Of a stretch of DNA of 8,276 bases, positions 1 through 6,610 are shown in pieces. Origin of the DNA: Candidatus Desantisiibacteriota bacterium (GTDB taxonomy: Bacteria; JACRDZ01); NCBI GenBank assembly GCA_016209155.1, contig JACQWU010000318.1, positions 1 to 8,276 on the forward strand. The letters are read 5' to 3'. Position numbers and translations under genes: made by a program. The first letter of the stretch is position 1; the number at the start of each line of letters is the position of its first letter. The notes beneath the pieces were generated by a model. The model saw only the letters and a list, made by a program, of their open reading frames with translations, made no database searches and was not told the origin of the DNA.

Positions 1-3000
1 CCTGATGAAAAAAAAGCCGGATTAAATAAAAATGAGGATGGTACTTCACAGACAAGTTTCCTTCGCATAAACAATCAGAGAAACAGTGATTTATGTACAA
101 ATTGCCATAAAAATCAGGGATTTGTGCTAAAAACTCCTCATGATATGGTTGAACTTGCGTTTAATGAAAAAAACATTCTCGGGAAAACTGCCGGAGCAAA
201 CGGGACATGTTCAGCTTGTCATTTAACACACAGAAGCAAAGACAAAAAACTCTTTGCAAGAGAATTTGGCCCCGGAGATGATATTATTACTAAAAAATGC
301 AACAGTTGTCATAATAAAGAAAAAGTTGCGGAAAAAAAATTATTAGCAGGAAATTCTCATACTATTAATTCTCCGCTTTTTTCAAAGAAAATGGCAACAA
401 ACCTGCCTCTTTTTGACAAGGAAGGCAATAAAAATCCCAAAGGAACAATTAAATGTCTGACATGTCATGATGCTCATCAATGGACTCAGGATAAATCGAA
501 ATTAGGGCAGGAGGTAAAAAATGAAAATATAACAATAACACAAGAAATAATAGAAAAAGGGATAATAGGGAAAATAGTATTTATAAAGGGAACTAACGTA
601 TATATTGATATACTGGATAATATTAAAGCTGAAATAAAAAAAGATCAAATATTATCAATTTTTAAAAATAATACTATTTTGTGCAGATTAAAAGTTCTAA
701 ATGTTAATCCTTTTGCCAAACAATCGGAAATATATGCTGTTGTTATAACCGAGGGGGCGGCAGGTAAAATCAGTATTGATGATATAGTTTTTGATCCGAC
801 AAAACTTGATGTGACTTTAGGCGGAGGAGTAAACGGGGATGGAAACAATAGTTTCTTGAATATTCAAAACAGTAAATCTGAATTATGCATCGACTGCCAC
901 AAAAATAAAAAACAAATATTCGGAACTAAACATGATATTTCAATTGTCGCCCCAAATTTTGCGAACTCAATAGGGCAGACGGTATCAACTTCAGGGACAT
1001 GTTCTGCATGTCATATTATCCATAATACAGATGGAGCATATTTAATAGATCAAAATAAAAAAGATCCGGAAAAAATCGATGTTTTAAGTAAAACATGCAG
1101 AATTTGTCATACCGGTACCGGTATTGCTTCCAATAAAATACCACAAAATCATCATCTTATACGTATGTTTCCTGAAGACAGGATAGATATCTCTCCTCCG
1201 CCTCCTTTTATGCCGCTTTATGATATTGACGGGAAAATAGGGTTCTGGGATTTTGTCAGCTGCGCTACATGTCATAATGTACATCAATGGGATCCGCGAA
1301 ATCCTGATAAGCATGAATTAAACGAAGGTGATAGTACAAACAACTTTTTAAGAATGAATAGTTCTGATAATCAGTTGTGCGATGCATGCCATGTTTCAAG
1401 ATATAATATGAAAATGACCAATGATCCAGATGAAACAAAGACACAGCCTGTACAACAAAATAAAAATTATGGAATATCAGAACCGGGTCAGGATAAAAAA
1501 GAAATAATTATATCAGAGGGCGGACCTAAAATAAGTATTGTATCACCAAAAAATAACTCTATTTTGACCAGCAAGGAACAAATTATTTCCGGAAATATAA
1601 GTGATTCATCTATACCAAAAGCCATGATAATATTAAATGGTAACCCGCAGATAATTCCTGTTTCATTAGGTATATTTGAAGAAAAACTGATATTTAAAGA
1701 AGGAAAAAATTTTTTTAAAATTCTTGCTACTAATCTGGATGGAAAAAGCGGAGCATCTGAAGAAATTAATGTTTTAATAGACACAAATAAATCAGGGATA
1801 ATAGGTTTTGATTATCCTAAACCGGTTACTCTGATGGATAATTTTCAGATGAAAATAATATTTAACCAATCAATGGATTCAAAAATCACCCCGATTATTT
1901 ATCTTTTAACAAGTGATTCTAAAACAATCATATTGGAAACTCAGGTTTCAGCCAAAGCTGTTTTTATAGGGCATTTTGAACCTCTCACTCCTCTTGATCC
2001 CCAGATCTACAGTGAAATAAAACAGGGAGATATGATATTAAATGCAAAAGAATATTATGGTTTTGAACAAAAACCTTTAGTAATTATTAAGGATTTATTA
2101 AAAAATAAAAATCCCGGTCCGGGAAATGATGAAGTCCAAATAATAGCCGCTTCCCCGACAGAACCAAATGGAGAAACTTTTGCTATAAAAGAACATCCGG
2201 TTTATGAAGGAATTTTTTCCGGAGATTTTGAGTTTGGCCGCTGGGAGGAATACGGGGATAACCTGCTTGGGATTGAGGATAAAAATAGTTTTACTGTAAC
2301 TTACAATCTGGGAGAATGGACATCAACTAATAAAACTAATGATACTTTTACATCTACTCCGATCAAAATCACCCGCAATATGAAAGGAGAAGTAAATATT
2401 GTGGTTGAAAATGCCAAAAGTATTAATGGAAATGTTATTGAACGAGATAATTCAGAATCCTTTGTTGTTTATCCTGATTTATTTAATATGAAAAACAAAA
2501 AGCCTGTCAGTATACTTGAAGGTATTGATATACGCACAACCGATATTCATCTTATATTTTCAGCTGAAGAAGCAACTCAGATGTTTATATCTGAAAAATT
2601 TGACCTGTCTTCCGGGAAATGGGAGCCATATGCGAAAGAGAAAAAATACTTTTTATTAAATCATCAAACCGGAAATAGAAAAATCTATTTTAAATTTAAA
2701 AATAAATTTGATGCTGAATCCCCTGTATTTATGGTGGACTTCAAATACAGTCCTGTAGAATATAATATGATACTTGATAAAGACATAACAAAAGACACCA
2801 TTTTTGAAGCTGATATGGGGCCTTTTATGATTCGTAAATCGATTAAAATAGATGAAGGTGTTACAGTTAAAATTAAGGAAGGATGTGTATTCTGGTTTGA
2901 TGCTTCAAGCAAAGAAAAAATTAAAATAAGTGTACCGGGAAAGCTGGAGGCTGAAGGTTCCAATGAAAAAAGAATAGTTTTTTCTTCAAATGCTTTAAAC

Positions 3001-4608
3001 CCTAAAAAAAGTGAATGGGAAGGTATCGAATTTATAAATTCAAAGCAAAATATTTTAAAATTTATTGATGTTCTTTATTCTGATAAAGGTGTTGTCCTTA
3101 TTAATTCACAGGCAATAATAGAAAATTGCAAATTTGAGTTTAATAATTTATCCGGTCTTACATGCAATAAAACCTCCGATACAATTATTTCTTTCAATAA
3201 ATTCATTAATAATGATATAGGAATATTGATAAGTAATAACTCCAATCCGAAAATAATGAATAATTATATTACAAACAACAACACGGGAATTTTATGCGAG
3301 ATTATTTCAACTCCAAGAATTATCAATAATTCAATAACAAAAAATATGAGTACCGGCATAAAATGTATTGAAATGTCTTCCCCTGCAATTTCTGATAATG
3401 AGATATCAAACAATACAGAATACGGAATTTATATTAAAAAAGCATCGCCAATGATATATCATAATAATATCGTCGAAAATATGATCGGAATTCTTTGTGA
3501 AGAATATCATAACCCTTTTCTTATTAAAAACAATAATATATTAAACAATAAAGATTATGCTATAAAATTATCGAATTTTGATCAAAACTTAGATGCTGCT
3601 AAAAATTGGTGGGGAACAAAAAATCCTGAAATAATAAAAAAATACTTGTATGATTACTGGAAAGATAATTCTTCGGGGAAGGTACTTTTTCTCCCGTATA
3701 TGGAAGCATCTGCAATCTTTACAAATATTAACATAGTTATAGATCAGAATAAGCCGGTAATTTTAACATGTGATTATCAAAAAATGGCAAATTTAACTTC
3801 GCATTTTCAAATATCTTTTGTTTTCAATGAATCCCTTAATCCTTTTGTTATCCCTGAGATTTCATTGGTTCACAAAAAAACCGGGGAGAAAATAATTTCC
3901 AAGACAGGAAGATTCTCATATATAACTTTTGAAAATGATACGTTCATAGCATCTGATATTACTCTTTTTGAAAGTATGGCGGGAGATATAGATATTTATA
4001 TAGAAAATGTGCAGGATGTAACCGGAAATATTATTGACAAAACCCTTGCAGGCACATTTACTCTTGACCCGACAGTAAAAAATACGGAGGGTGATTATCT
4101 CTCTTCTTCTCTACTGACACTCAATATATCAGCACCAGATGCAATAAGTATTATGATAAGTGAAGATCCTAAATTTACAGGAAAGGAATGGGAGGATTTC
4201 ACTCCTTTGAAAAAAATTAATATTTCGGAAGAAGAAGGGGAAAAGATAATTTATATCCGTACTCGTGATAAAACCGGTGCATCGTCGCCTGTGAGTCAAT
4301 ATATGGTTCATCTGGATAAAACTCCTCCCCTTATTCTTAATCCTGTTTATAATGTTCCAAAAGTAAAAGAGCTTTTCAACTTAAAATTATATTTTAGCGA
4401 ACGATTAGCTCCGGGCTGTAAACCAAAAGTTATTTTAAAAAGTCTTAACAATAATACTTTCACTTTGCCTGACGGTAAAATTACAAGTGCTACATTTATA
4501 GATGACACTTACACCGTACCTCCGGTAACTCTTCCTGAAAACATTGAAGGATATATTACTATTTTGGTGGAAAATGTAGGCAGAAAGATCGAACGGACGT
4601 TGAAATGA
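1..4608 (+). CDS. Giant multihaem c-type cytochrome / Ig-like / beta-helix surface protein, 5'-partial
   Basis: The frame is open from base 1 (a haem motif lies at 94-108, ahead of the first possible start, GTG at 124), so the true start and signal peptide are off the window. 1535 residues are visible. Domain order by base: nine CXXCH motifs (94-1392) in four-haem modules of the paired-CXXCH type; a beta-barrel-like insert (511-819); a bacterial Ig-like domain (1525-1788, starting ISIVSPKNN); an Ig-like domain with a nested insert (1795-2475); an FN3-like unit (2497-2748); a right-handed beta-helix (2785-3720); then alternating Ig-like units (from 3751). Haem attachment by CXXCH implies export across the inner membrane. 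A role in electron transfer at the cell surface is inferred from the haems plus adhesin-like architecture. The stop at 4606-4608 falls inside a repeat unit and the protein appears truncated there; the remainder follows in the next frame. The presence of haems and repeats is certain; the function is not. Confidence 0.9.
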   Translation, partial: PDEKKAGLNKNEDGTSQTSFLRINNQRNSDLCTNCHKNQGFVLKTPHDMVELAFNEKNILGKTAGANGTCSACHLTHRSKDKKLFAREFGPGDDIITKKCNSCHNKEKVAEKKLLAGNSHTINSPLFSKKMATNLPLFDKEGNKNPKGTIKCLTCHDAHQWTQDKSKLGQEVKNENITITQEIIEKGIIGKIVFIKGTNVYIDILDNIKAEIKKDQILSIFKNNTILCRLKVLNVNPFAKQSEIYAVVITEGAAGKISIDDIVFDPTKLDVTLGGGVNGDGNNSFLNIQNSKSELCIDCHKNKKQIFGTKHDISIVAPNFANSIGQTVSTSGTCSACHIIHNTDGAYLIDQNKKDPEKIDVLSKTCRICHTGTGIASNKIPQNHHLIRMFPEDRIDISPPPPFMPLYDIDGKIGFWDFVSCATCHNVHQWDPRNPDKHELNEGDSTNNFLRMNSSDNQLCDACHVSRYNMKMTNDPDETKTQPVQQNKNYGISEPGQDKKEIIISEGGPKISIVSPKNNSILTSKEQIISGNISDSSIPKAMIILNGNPQIIPVSLGIFEEKLIFKEGKNFFKILATNLDGKSGASEEINVLIDTNKSGIIGFDYPKPVTLMDNFQMKIIFNQSMDSKITPIIYLLTSDSKTIILETQVSAKAVFIGHFEPLTPLDPQIYSEIKQGDMILNAKEYYGFEQKPLVIIKDLLKNKNPGPGNDEVQIIAASPTEPNGETFAIKEHPVYEGIFSGDFEFGRWEEYGDNLLGIEDKNSFTVTYNLGEWTSTNKTNDTFTSTPIKITRNMKGEVNIVVENAKSINGNVIERDNSESFVVYPDLFNMKNKKPVSILEGIDIRTTDIHLIFSAEEATQMFISEKFDLSSGKWEPYAKEKKYFLLNHQTGNRKIYFKFKNKFDAESPVFMVDFKYSPVEYNMILDKDITKDTIFEADMGPFMIRKSIKIDEGVTVKIKEGCVFWFDASSKEKIKISVPGKLEAEGSNEKRIVFSSNALNPKKSEWEGIEFINSKQNILKFIDVLYSDKGVVLINSQAIIENCKFEFNNLSGLTCNKTSDTIISFNKFINNDIGILISNNSNPKIMNNYITNNNTGILCEIISTPRIINNSITKNMSTGIKCIEMSSPAISDNEISNNTEYGIYIKKASPMIYHNNIVENMIGILCEEYHNPFLIKNNNILNNKDYAIKLSNFDQNLDAAKNWWGTKNPEIIKKYLYDYWKDNSSGKVLFLPYMEASAIFTNINIVIDQNKPVILTCDYQKMANLTSHFQISFVFNESLNPFVIPEISLVHKKTGEKIISKTGRFSYITFENDTFIASDITLFESMAGDIDIYIENVQDVTGNIIDKTLAGTFTLDPTVKNTEGDYLSSSLLTLNISAPDAISIMISEDPKFTGKEWEDFTPLKKINISEEEGEKIIYIRTRDKTGASSPVSQYMVHLDKTPPLILNPVYNVPKVKELFNLKLYFSERLAPGCKPKVILKSLNNNTFTLPDGKITSATFIDDTYTVPPVTLPENIEGYITILVENVGRKIERTLK
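94..1392 (+). other. Nine-haem region: repeated four-haem paired-CXXCH modules
   Basis: CXXCH motifs lie at 94-108 (CTNCH), 208-222 (CSACH), 298-312 (CNSCH), 454-468 (CLTCH), 886-900 (CIDCH), 1000-1014 (CSACH), 1096-1110 (CRICH), 1261-1275 (CATCH) and 1378-1392 (CDACH). They form repeats in a fixed order: GTCSACHxxH, then CxxCH, then CxTCHxxHQW, then FLRxN...LCxxCH. The first motif in the window is the last haem of a preceding module, so at least one more module lies upstream. Recurrent extra histidines (three residues after CSACH, in the HQW motif, and in HD after two of the LCxxCH motifs) are candidates for distal haem ligands. The last module (CDACH) lacks the following HD, which marks the end of the haem array. 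Confidence 0.93.
511..819 (+). other. Beta-barrel (FlgT C-terminal-like) domain inserted in a haem module
   Basis: About 103 residues separate the HQW motif of one four-haem module from its final FLxxxN...LCxxCH element; the equivalent gap in the next module is short. The insert has no CXXCH. It shows a pattern of short beta strands: GKIVFIKGTNVYIDI, then a KKDQILSIF turn, then RLKVLNVNPFAKQSEIYAV, then ISIDDIVF. The scheme G-x-V-x-x-hydrophobic...V-Y-I-D, a charged loop, a V-x-x-V strand with a downstream Ser-acid pair, and a final D-x-V-F resembles small barrels such as the C-terminal domain of flagellar protein FlgT. The family assignment rests on pattern resemblance only; the insertion itself is seen directly by comparing modules. 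Confidence 0.55.
1951..2310 (+). other. Nested beta-sandwich insert within an Ig-like unit
   Basis: The Ig-like unit starting near 1795 (GFDYPKPV, FNQSMD) is interrupted before its second half resumes at 2311 (GEWTSTNKTNDTF, then INGNVIERD). In the other units these halves are nearly contiguous. The inserted sequence contains NKNPGPGNDEVQIIAAS, GETFAIKEHPVYEGIFSGDF and DKNSFTVTY. This matches a scheme often seen in large bacterial extracellular proteins (D-x-N-x-NP, D-x-V-x-V, GE-x-x-x-L-x-E, TGVF-x-G, D-x-x-TVTY). The exact borders are approximate. Confidence 0.6.
2785..3720 (+). other. Right-handed parallel beta-helix domain (NosD-like / pectate-lyase-like)
   Basis: An N-terminal cap (IKIDEGVTVKIKEG, VPGKLEAEGS, RIVFSS) leads into rungs of about 20-24 residues with Asn-rich turns, such as NNYITNNNTGILCE, NNSITKNMSTGIKC, DNEISNNTEYGIYI and HNNIVENMIGILCE. 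The domain ends with the KNWWG motif (3601-3615) and a closing GKVLFLPYM segment, a typical end for parallel beta-helix repeat proteins of the NosD/periplasmic copper-binding type. No catalytic residues can be assigned. In this context it is probably a rigid spacer or a carbohydrate-binding/surface module. Confidence 0.88.
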
Positions 4609-6263
4609 TTTTAAGTGAAAATAAGGATTTTAAAGATGCCGGATGGGAGCCATTGGAAAAAGAACATGGATTTAAACTCTCAAGCGGTGAAGGGGAAAAA
4701 ATTATTTATCTTCAATTCAGAGACAAAATAGGTTATATCTCCCCTATTCAGCAGGTAACTATTTTTGTGGACATAAATTCTCCATATATAATTAATTACG
4801 AATATCCGTCGCCTGTACAAATAAGTAATGATTTTCAGGTTAAGATCCAATTTAATGAATCCATGGATACTACATATATCCCTGTGGTAAATCTCTTAAG
4901 CACGGGAGAAAAAAATCCTATAATCTCAGGGCAAGGTACTTTTACAACAATTAAATCACCAAATGATACTTATATAACACCTCCTATAATACTCGATGAA
5001 AGCATGGGAGGAGCTATAACCATTGTGGTATCAAAAGCTTTCGACATGGCAAAAAATGAGATGGAATTGAAAATGGATAAAAGCTTTAACTTTGATACTT
5101 ATGCTCCAATCGCAGCGCAAATCAAAGTCAAAGAAGGAAATTATGTGCGCAATCCCAAAATTAATTTTACACTTTCAGTAATTGGAGCAGTTAAAATGAT
5201 GCTTTCTGAAAATCAGGAATTTAAAGACACCACATGGATTGACTATGCCGGAGATATAGAATATTTTCTTTCAAATAAGGATGGAATAAAAAAAGTATAT
5301 TTTAAATTTGAGGATGAAAATAAAAATATATCTAAACCAAAAAGAGTGGAAATTACTTTAGACCGTGTTAAACCTAAAATTACAGGATTTGATTTACCTG
5401 AAACGATAGAAATCAATAAACCTTTTAAAATTACTATTCATTACAGCGAAGAAATAAGGGCTGAAAAACCTGCCATCGTCCTTATGAGTACAAACCGTAT
5501 AAATTATTTAATTTTTAACGAAGGAACTTTTATAAGTGATAAAAACAAAAATGATACATATGTAACTCCGGAAATTGTATTTGATGAAAGTATGAAAGGT
5601 GCAATTGTTATTGTTGTCGATCAGATATTTGATCCTACAGGCAACAAAATGGATATTTTTAACAAACTGTTGTTTTATTTTGGAGTGGAAGATCCAAACA
5701 AGCAAAAAATAAAAATCAGTGAAGGGAAATATACTACAAAAGAAGATATAACAATTCTTTTTAATTATGCCGATATAAAAAAAATGAAGATAAGCGAAGA
5801 CCCAGAACAAAAATTTGCCAAATGGTTAGGGTATAAAAATAGAATAAGATACACCCTGAGCAAAAATGAGGGAGAAAAAAATATATATATAACTGTAATT
5901 CATAATGATGAAAAAATAGAAAAATCAAATTTCAAAATAATTCTGGACAAAACTGAACCTAAACTTATAAAATCTGTCTTCCCTGAAGAAGACAACCTTA
6001 TTTCAAATCAAATAAAATTTATTTTCAGCGAACAGTTAAATATAAATTTCCAGCCTGTGATTATTATCACAGACGCAAATGGGAAAAATATTCTTCTGAG
6101 TGAAAAGGGCAGATTTACTAATACAAAGGAAAAAAATGATACATTTATTACTCCTGTTATCCCAAAGTATAATAAGCTGGCTTATCCTATCGATATTTCC
6201 ATAACAAAAGCTTATGATGCAGCGGGAAATGTGATGAAACTTGTTCATGTAAAAAAAGAAAGA
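3751..6263 (+). repeat. Alternating Ig-like (A) and FN3-like (B) protein repeats across both frames
   Basis: Two diverged unit types alternate. Type A: FxxxFxESM near the start, then GxFxx...NDTYxTPxI, ExMxGxIxIxV, DxxGN. Type B: a turn, then MxISExxxF...W, then a LS...GEKxIYxxFxD...LDxxxP segment. Approximate borders: A 3751-4071, B 4075-4320, A 4330-4605 (cut), B 4605-4778 (headless), A 4785-5114, B 5115-5372, A 5379-5702, B 5706-5954, A 5961-6263. An earlier A/B pair lies at 1795-2748, before the beta-helix. Type B is related to the widespread extracellular scheme with GxKTVYVQFRDxAGN. The units differ strongly in sequence, so the array is old and not a recent tandem duplication. Confidence 0.85.
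4570..4607 (+). other. Frame-disrupting deletion junction within the repeat array
   Basis: In the intact unit upstream, the distance from the ENV strand (4003) to the M of MISED (4153) is 150 bases; the corresponding distance in the unit at 5031-5196 is about 165. Here ENV (4570) to MILSEN (4605) is only 35 bases. Roughly 115-130 bases are missing, and the loss is not a multiple of three, so the upstream frame hits TGA at 4606-4608 while the repeat continues in the -1 frame. No slippery heptamer or pseudoknot-like element is obvious at the site. Confidence 0.7.
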
Positions 6264-6266
6264 TAA
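4605..6266 (+). CDS. C-terminal Ig-like repeat region, probable frameshifted continuation of the upstream cytochrome gene
   Basis: This frame has 553 codons from the ATG that overlaps the upstream stop (ATGA). It has no signal peptide, no haem motif and no membrane segment. The first residues (MILSEN) fall in the middle of an FN3-like unit: the other units read MISED, MMLSEN and MKISED at the same place, with further strands before it. The frame is also open upstream of the ATG and reads TDVE just before it, which fits the repeat. Units by residue: partial FN3-like 1-58, Ig-like 61-170, FN3-like 171-256, Ig-like 259-366, FN3-like 368-450, Ig-like 453-553. There is no clear ribosome binding site before the ATG. 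Without a signal peptide a separate protein would stay in the cytoplasm, where such domains are not expected, so I read it as the severed 3' part of the upstream gene. Coupled translation through the ATGA overlap is the alternative. No C-terminal anchor or sorting motif is visible. Confidence 0.75.
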   Translation: MILSENKDFKDAGWEPLEKEHGFKLSSGEGEKIIYLQFRDKIGYISPIQQVTIFVDINSPYIINYEYPSPVQISNDFQVKIQFNESMDTTYIPVVNLLSTGEKNPIISGQGTFTTIKSPNDTYITPPIILDESMGGAITIVVSKAFDMAKNEMELKMDKSFNFDTYAPIAAQIKVKEGNYVRNPKINFTLSVIGAVKMMLSENQEFKDTTWIDYAGDIEYFLSNKDGIKKVYFKFEDENKNISKPKRVEITLDRVKPKITGFDLPETIEINKPFKITIHYSEEIRAEKPAIVLMSTNRINYLIFNEGTFISDKNKNDTYVTPEIVFDESMKGAIVIVVDQIFDPTGNKMDIFNKLLFYFGVEDPNKQKIKISEGKYTTKEDITILFNYADIKKMKISEDPEQKFAKWLGYKNRIRYTLSKNEGEKNIYITVIHNDEKIEKSNFKIILDKTEPKLIKSVFPEEDNLISNQIKFIFSEQLNINFQPVIIITDANGKNILLSEKGRFTNTKEKNDTFITPVIPKYNKLAYPIDISITKAYDAAGNVMKLVHVKKER

Positions 6267-6283: not shown

Positions 6284-6610
6284 ATGAAAAAAATGAATAT
6301 ATATTTGTTTATTATGCTTATTATTATATCTTTTTCTTTTTGTGGTTGTGAAGTAGATAAATTAAGAGAAGAAAATACAAATTTAAAACAGCAGATTGAA
6401 ACATTAACTTCTGAAAAAGCCACAATGGATTCACAAATAAAAGAACTTTCAACAAAAGTTGAAGATCTTACAAAAAACAGCGGCATCCTTGAAAGAACCA
6501 ATGAAAATTTAAGAGTACAGGTTAATGAATTAAGTAAAAAGAAAATAAGCAAAAACACTATTAAAGCTGCACCTAAAGCACCTGGTAATAAAAAAAAGAA
6601 GAAAAAATAA
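6284..6610 (+). CDS. Small coiled-coil lipoprotein with poly-lysine C-terminus
   Basis: 108 residues from the ATG that follows an exceptionally strong SD. Residues 1-22 are an export signal: KK at the N-terminus, a hydrophobic stretch YLFIMLIIISFSF, then FCGC, which fits a loose lipobox with Cys22 (or Cys20) as the lipidated residue. Residues 24-83 form an unbroken coiled coil: d positions L27, L34, L41, M48, L55, L62, L69, L76 and L83 are spaced exactly by seven, and a positions include V24, I38, I52, V59 and V80, with polar N31, K45, S66 and N73. The tail is basic (KAAPKAPGN, then six Lys). The layout recalls murein lipoprotein Lpp, a short lipidated coiled coil ending in Lys, but this resemblance is architectural and no homology is claimed. 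The gene starts 17 bases after the preceding stop, so it shares the transcript of the cytochrome/Ig gene. Confidence 0.85.
   Translation: MKKMNIYLFIMLIIISFSFCGCEVDKLREENTNLKQQIETLTSEKATMDSQIKELSTKVEDLTKNSGILERTNENLRVQVNELSKKKISKNTIKAAPKAPGNKKKKKK

Follow-up and report, generated by a model that had tools for sequence, protein, structure and literature searches.

The locus and its genes

The window, by which we mean the whole stretch of DNA analysed (8,276 nucleotides), is one complete contig (C295) of a metagenome-assembled genome (MAG) of Candidatus Desantisiibacteriota (G000; 3.08 Mb in 352 contigs, 79% complete), which was compared within a sample of four genomes of the phylum. Most of the window is occupied by the 3' part of a giant gene, and its features are the following:

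1-6266, + strand: giant gene, 3' part, spanning two frames, start missing
52-483, + strand: four-haem module 1 (CXXCH at 94, 208, 298 and 454; probable distal histidines at residues 47, 77, 120 and 159)
541-804, + strand: small beta-barrel insert (residues 181-268), from an AlphaFold2 model
844-1290, + strand: four-haem module 2 (CXXCH at 886, 1000, 1096 and 1261)
1378-1392, + strand: ninth CXXCH; homologues from other phyla end at most about 85 residues beyond it
1525-1752, + strand: first Ig domain, Glucodextran_B / Big_13 type (E 1.8e-5; 25 bits, just under the 27-bit cut-off)
1798-2463, + strand: stalk unit A with an inserted domain (about 1942-2277); the two halves match profile A at residues 600-647 and 760-821
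2512-2739, + strand: stalk unit B (unit-B profile, E 1.6e-24)
2743-3654, + strand: right-handed parallel beta-helix of PbH1 repeats (Pfam Beta_helix 5.5e-19, NosD 9.2e-13)
3754-4578, + strand: stalk units A-B-A (profile matches at residues 1252-1353, 1363-1436 and 1443-1526)
4570-4605, + strand: frame break, with a change of frame and about 45 residues of the paralogue L008 absent
4599-6266, + strand: stalk units (B)-A-B-A-B-A up to the stop codon, read in frame +3 (unit profiles)
6284-6610, + strand: small coiled-coil lipoprotein gene with a Lys-rich end, read from sequence; its coiled-coil matches are weak only

The remaining genes encode an O-methyltransferase and, on the opposite strand, an inositol-phosphate synthase (3' end); no redox partner gene adjoins the giant gene in the window. 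Frame +1, which has no start codon, runs open over bases 1-4608 (1535 amino acids) and frame +3 is open from 4548 to the stop codon at 6266, so the visible chain comprises 1535 plus about 555 residues, in agreement with the preliminary description of more than 2000 visible residues and a missing N-terminus. The ribosome-binding site of the lipoprotein gene overlaps the stop codon of the giant gene, therefore both genes probably belong to one operon. The lipoprotein, with its coiled coil and poly-Lys end, has a layout like that of Lpp.

Compared to L008, its paralogue in the same genome (G000:C156), the gene lacks about 258 N-terminal residues. This stretch holds six haems in L008, therefore about 15 haems are predicted in total. 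Retrieval of the upstream sequence had been recommended, but the window is already the entire contig, and a search of G000 with the first 258 residues of L008 gave no clear candidate contig for the missing start.

The haem modules

The nine CXXCH motifs are all in frame within residues 1-474 of frame +1. Chance would give about 0.3 matches to the CXXCH DNA pattern in the whole window, and shuffling of residues 1-474 gave a mean of 0.03 motifs and a maximum of 2. The spacings are 38/30/52 in the first module and 38/32/55 in the second, while the ninth haem stands alone. Pfam recognised Paired_CXXCH_1 (3.8e-14, above the cut-off) as well as Cytochrome_C7. The repeated four-haem modules noticed earlier are thus borne out, with a ninth haem besides.

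In an alignment of 40 sequences (the window, at most three sequences of the same phylum and the remainder from many other phyla) all nine CXXCH motifs are invariant, and the doubt whether the haem motifs are conserved in homologues was thereby removed. Seven further histidines (residues 47, 77, 120, 159, 311, 341 and 428) are present in 39-40 of the 40 sequences; by analogy with known bis-His cytochromes they are the probable distal haem ligands. Within the phylum, L034 has lost one CXXCH. The Pfam matches, the invariant motifs and the Sec-type N-termini of the relatives (the window's own N-terminus lies off the contig) identify the product as a multi-haem c-type cytochrome.

The two modules are separated by a small beta-barrel, which was missed previously. 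Its model resembles the N-terminal barrel of F1-ATPase and HerA (Z 9-11, a likeness of fold only), and the matches listed for the model of the haem region were all to this barrel. Only in this phylum did a profile of the module-barrel-module arrangement find matches that cover most of it. The barrel could interrupt the haem chain.

The tail

After the ninth haem the chain continues with the Ig domain, an interrupted unit A, a unit B, the beta-helix and then A-B-A-(B)-A-B-A-B-A, the last A unit being the 3' end of the gene. Profiles built from the stalk itself found six A and five B units over both frames. At the position of the first Ig domain the relative L031 reaches the cut-off of both Glucodextran_B and Big_13. 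The model of an A-B pair is all-beta (pLDDT 74, pTM 0.47) and its fold matches are Ig and FN3 domains, among them the S-layer protein SbsC for unit A and the C-terminal domain of an endo-N-acetylglucosaminidase for unit B; these matches (Z 7-9) show a shared fold and say nothing on function. No significant match was obtained between the tail sequence and solved structures. Taken together, the profile search of each segment, which had been proposed as a check, found the cytochrome, Beta_helix/NosD, Glucodextran_B-like and A/B units, and with the fold model it upholds the described chimera of haem modules, Ig domain, beta-helix and Ig/FN3-like stalk in that order.

The idea of a polysaccharide lyase was dropped, as Pfam gave no catalytic family. 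Beta-helix domains of the same type also occur in the genomes of the phylum as stand-alone secreted proteins and lipoproteins, and one further secreted protein contains an A-B pair. At L143 (G001:C61) several beta-helix genes adjoin each other, some apparently with TolB-like repeats at the end; this run is an expanded secreted family in the phylum.

The frame break and the assembly

The first frame terminates VENVGRKIERTLK and the second picks up RQKDRTDVEMILSENK, while L008 has about 45 residues more between these points. Of the single continuous chain that had been described, the order from haems to stalk stands, but the chain is broken at about 4570-4605 and some 45 residues are gone. A programmed frameshift was rejected, since residues are missing compared to the paralogue and not the frame alone. 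Although the DNA is AT-rich, the frames on either side run for 1535 and 572 codons with no stop, therefore any real inactivation would need to be recent. As judged from the sequence, the break is probably an assembly fault, which is the likeliest cause, or a recent deletion; the window's copy, startless and frame-broken, may be damaged.

Other contigs of G000 were inspected as well. On C141 a giant gene is broken and a haem-bearing segment is lost. At about 11434-12036 of L008 the stalk frame continues directly and in frame into the CTP synthase gene pyrG, of which no other copy was found in the MAG; this is probably a faulty join or a deletion. On C351 (L167, G000:C351:4000-8376) a small SPOR gene at 2901-3447, located between aminoacyl-tRNA-synthetase-like and HU-like genes, is split into two frames, its intact relatives having 181-193 amino acids; we regard this as a sign of general assembly faults. 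The valS gene of G000 is intact and rpoC is divided between contigs.

Relatives and the origin of the fusion

A search of the genome contigs with the raw protein gave no match; a search with the alignment found two members of the phylum (MAGs STD1_102 and Dive96_bin2.216) and many tail-less homologues. The haem giants of the phylum fall into three groups:

Group I: 35-37 haems followed by A-B-beta-helix (L032, 2429 aa; L033, 2545 aa; L034, cut at the contig end; L009, in two frames)
Group II, which includes the window: 15-22 haems followed by a long stalk (L008, 15 haems; L031, 2849 aa and 22 haems; L035/L036)
Group III: 33-34 haems without a tail, in a cluster with NHL propeller, cytochrome b561-type, three-haem and five-/six-haem genes

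The haem-tail junction lies in one open frame in L008, L031, L032, L033, L034 and L009b, that is in four genomes of three families. On the evidence of these frames the fusion is real and conserved across three families of the phylum.

Several further observations were made on these loci. L035 and L036 (G002:C168 and C1) overlap by 46 residues and together give about 4,450 residues with A, B and several beta-helix units; this stalk is among the longest seen, and its missing start probably carries haems. A conserved gene for an exported cytochrome of 7-8 haems lies directly upstream of the 35-37-haem gene in L032, L033 and L034. L037, L038, L039, L041 and L045 encode 33-34-haem proteins (28 haems in L045) within the NHL/cytochrome b561-type gene cluster; this cluster, which looks like an uncharacterised electron-export system, occurs in other phyla too.

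Homologous four-haem modules with the same histidine pattern were found in a widespread group of 18-38-haem proteins of Nitrospirota, Desulfobacterota and Proteobacteria (L048-L124; L100 among these loci is a group III locus of the present phylum). The haem modules are homologous, but the window's chain adds a tail of more than 1000 residues, whereas these proteins terminate no more than about 85 residues past the last haem, and A, B or beta-helix units are absent from all 251 open reading frames with at least six CXXCH motifs in these loci. When a junction query was run against 386 genomes, a single protein matching both sides was found only in G000 and G001; group I proteins, whose linker varies at this point, match one side. 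Because the homologues from other phyla stop near the last haem and have no tail units, the sequences indicate that the tail was added in this lineage to the end of an otherwise complete cytochrome. A Desulfobulbaceae protein at L052 (14392-21933) was set aside as a different family: its open reading frame of at least 2514 amino acids contains 17 CXXCH motifs and then a long tail of propeller-like and thrombospondin-3-like repeats, a haem-tail fusion unrelated to that of the window.

Export and position in the cell envelope

The N-termini of L008, L009 and L031-L034 are Sec-type signal sequences with a hydrophobic core of mean hydropathy 2.0-2.9, and no later transmembrane-like stretch was seen in the relatives tested or in the visible parts of the window's gene; both calls were made by inspection and hydropathy, without a trained predictor. 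The concern raised earlier that the upstream part might carry no export signal is thus answered by the relatives that retain their start. BamA-type proteins are encoded in all four genomes of the phylum, therefore an outer membrane is expected.

In our view the product is rather probably (about 0.7) a multi-haem c-type cytochrome, soluble and exported, from a candidate phylum of diderm bacteria: an electron-transfer wire positioned by its tail. This reading is favoured because the motifs and histidines are conserved, the fusion is conserved within the phylum, the relatives have Sec-type N-termini, the group III genes neighbour NHL, cytochrome b561-type and small multi-haem genes, and BamA is present. 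The conserved haem motifs and probable axial ligands, the export-type N-termini of the relatives, the domain order and the conserved fusion are direct observations. From these we infer that electrons would hop along the bis-His haems, and that the tail, presumably without redox chemistry of its own, would position the haem chain by its length and by binding a polymer, either cell wall or exopolysaccharide.

The preliminary description suggested a surface conduit on a stalk or a redox-active adhesin. The electron-carrying chimera in this proposal holds, but the surface location is not borne out, as neither a lipobox, a surface-sorting domain nor a porin partner was found and L031 carries a C-terminal SPOR (peptidoglycan-binding) domain (29.1 bits against the Pfam cut-off of 21), which among the relatives is the sole envelope-targeting domain found. 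Therefore a surface redox adhesin is just one option and the cell wall is at least as well indicated. That the Ig stalk lifts the haems past the outer membrane, with the beta-helix binding exopolysaccharide, mineral or a partner cell, is nevertheless quite conceivable, if somewhat short of even odds. About ten Ig-like units and the beta-helix would extend to some 40-50 nm by the usual domain sizes, more than the width of the periplasm, and the stalk in G002 exceeds 4,400 residues. Unit A resembles S-layer domains of SbsC, and a like role was proposed for the pectin-lyase-like domain of the ANME MHC-C proteins (PMC9012536). However, no outer-membrane export route was identified, nor a transmembrane helix or any known surface-sorting domain; no porin was recognised beside the window gene or L031-L034 by reading and, for some of the neighbours, by Pfam. 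The SPOR domain of L031 also favours the cell wall.

The tail might instead fix the haem chain to peptidoglycan, so that a periplasmic wire relays electrons between the inner and outer membranes. We regard this as nearly as likely. It accords with the SPOR domain of L031, with a Sec signal as the only export signal and with the Lys-rich end of the neighbouring lipoprotein, which recalls Lpp; but the SPOR domain occurs in one relative only, Pfam finding none in the window's gene, and the stalks look over-long for the periplasm unless they lie along the wall.

Both ideas can be combined in an electrical stalk tethered to the cell wall, with its C-terminal end on peptidoglycan (the SPOR domain in G001) and the Ig and beta-helix part carrying the haems outward. 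This is unlikely, as is its corollary that one soluble polypeptide with no membrane anchor spans the distance from the wall to the exterior, or else the whole periplasm.

Finally, that the joining of haems and tail is itself a metagenome-assembly artefact is highly improbable: the joins on C141, C156 and C351 of the same MAG look faulty, but C156 and three further genomes of the phylum show the haem-tail junction unbroken, which refutes this reading for the fusion, while an assembly fault is still likely where the frame breaks at 4570-4605.

For most uncultured lineages it is not settled how carriers that move electrons over long distances are positioned, whether within the cell envelope or from cell to cell. 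Here the same genomes encode members of one haem-chain family with and without a tail, so that comparing the two directly offers a way to study what the tail does.

Comparison with known systems

In the literature searched we found no paper with haem, Ig-like and beta-helix parts together, no haem chain that carries a beta-helix as well as a long stalk of alternating Ig/FN3 domains, and no paper that joins "multiheme" with "SPOR domain". The ANME MHC type C proteins and the 86-haem protein of ANME-2c combine very many haems and a pectin-lyase-like beta-helix in one exported chain (PMC9012536). By the published description these chains, like the present one, have no transmembrane anchor; however, the ANME proteins are archaeal, their beta-helix is reported to be N-terminal (PMC9012536) whereas it follows the haems in every member of our phylum, and no long Ig/FN3 stalk was described.

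In the MtoA-like cytochromes of Dethiobacter alkaliphilus, large Ig-like domains form the C-terminal part (PMC10376724), similarly with the haem part first and the Ig-like tail behind. These are, however, relatives of the decahaem MtoA/DmsE proteins for which a beta-helix or a long alternating stalk was not reported, and the present protein lies outside the DmsE/MtrA/MtoA decahaem family (TIGR03508; 19.2 bits against a cut-off of 192.2). The PCC3 porin-cytochrome systems also contain very large repetitive multi-haem proteins, proposed to be wires, with up to 85 haems (PMC5566968), but a neighbouring porin and an inner-membrane protein are part of their definition, neither of which was recognised next to the present genes, and no Ig/beta-helix tail was reported. 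OetF of syntrophic sulfate reducers is a cytochrome with fibronectin domains thought to touch the matrix or a partner (PMC10553843); compared by description, the fibronectin domains on a cytochrome are alike, but a beta-helix and a long stalk were not reported. Of the OmcS/OmcE/OmcZ cytochrome filaments, in which small subunits polymerise, our profile weakly matched an OmcE (8.6e-8) and an OmcS (2.8e-4) chain, over CXXCH-rich stretches.

Haems with a beta-helix (ANME MHC-C) and haems with Ig domains (Dethiobacter) are therefore already known, and each pairing has its precedent. New compared to the literature searched are the beta-helix together with a long alternating Ig/FN3 stalk on one haem chain and the SPOR domain on such a protein, the latter offering, in L031, a way to test whether electron transfer is linked to the cell wall.
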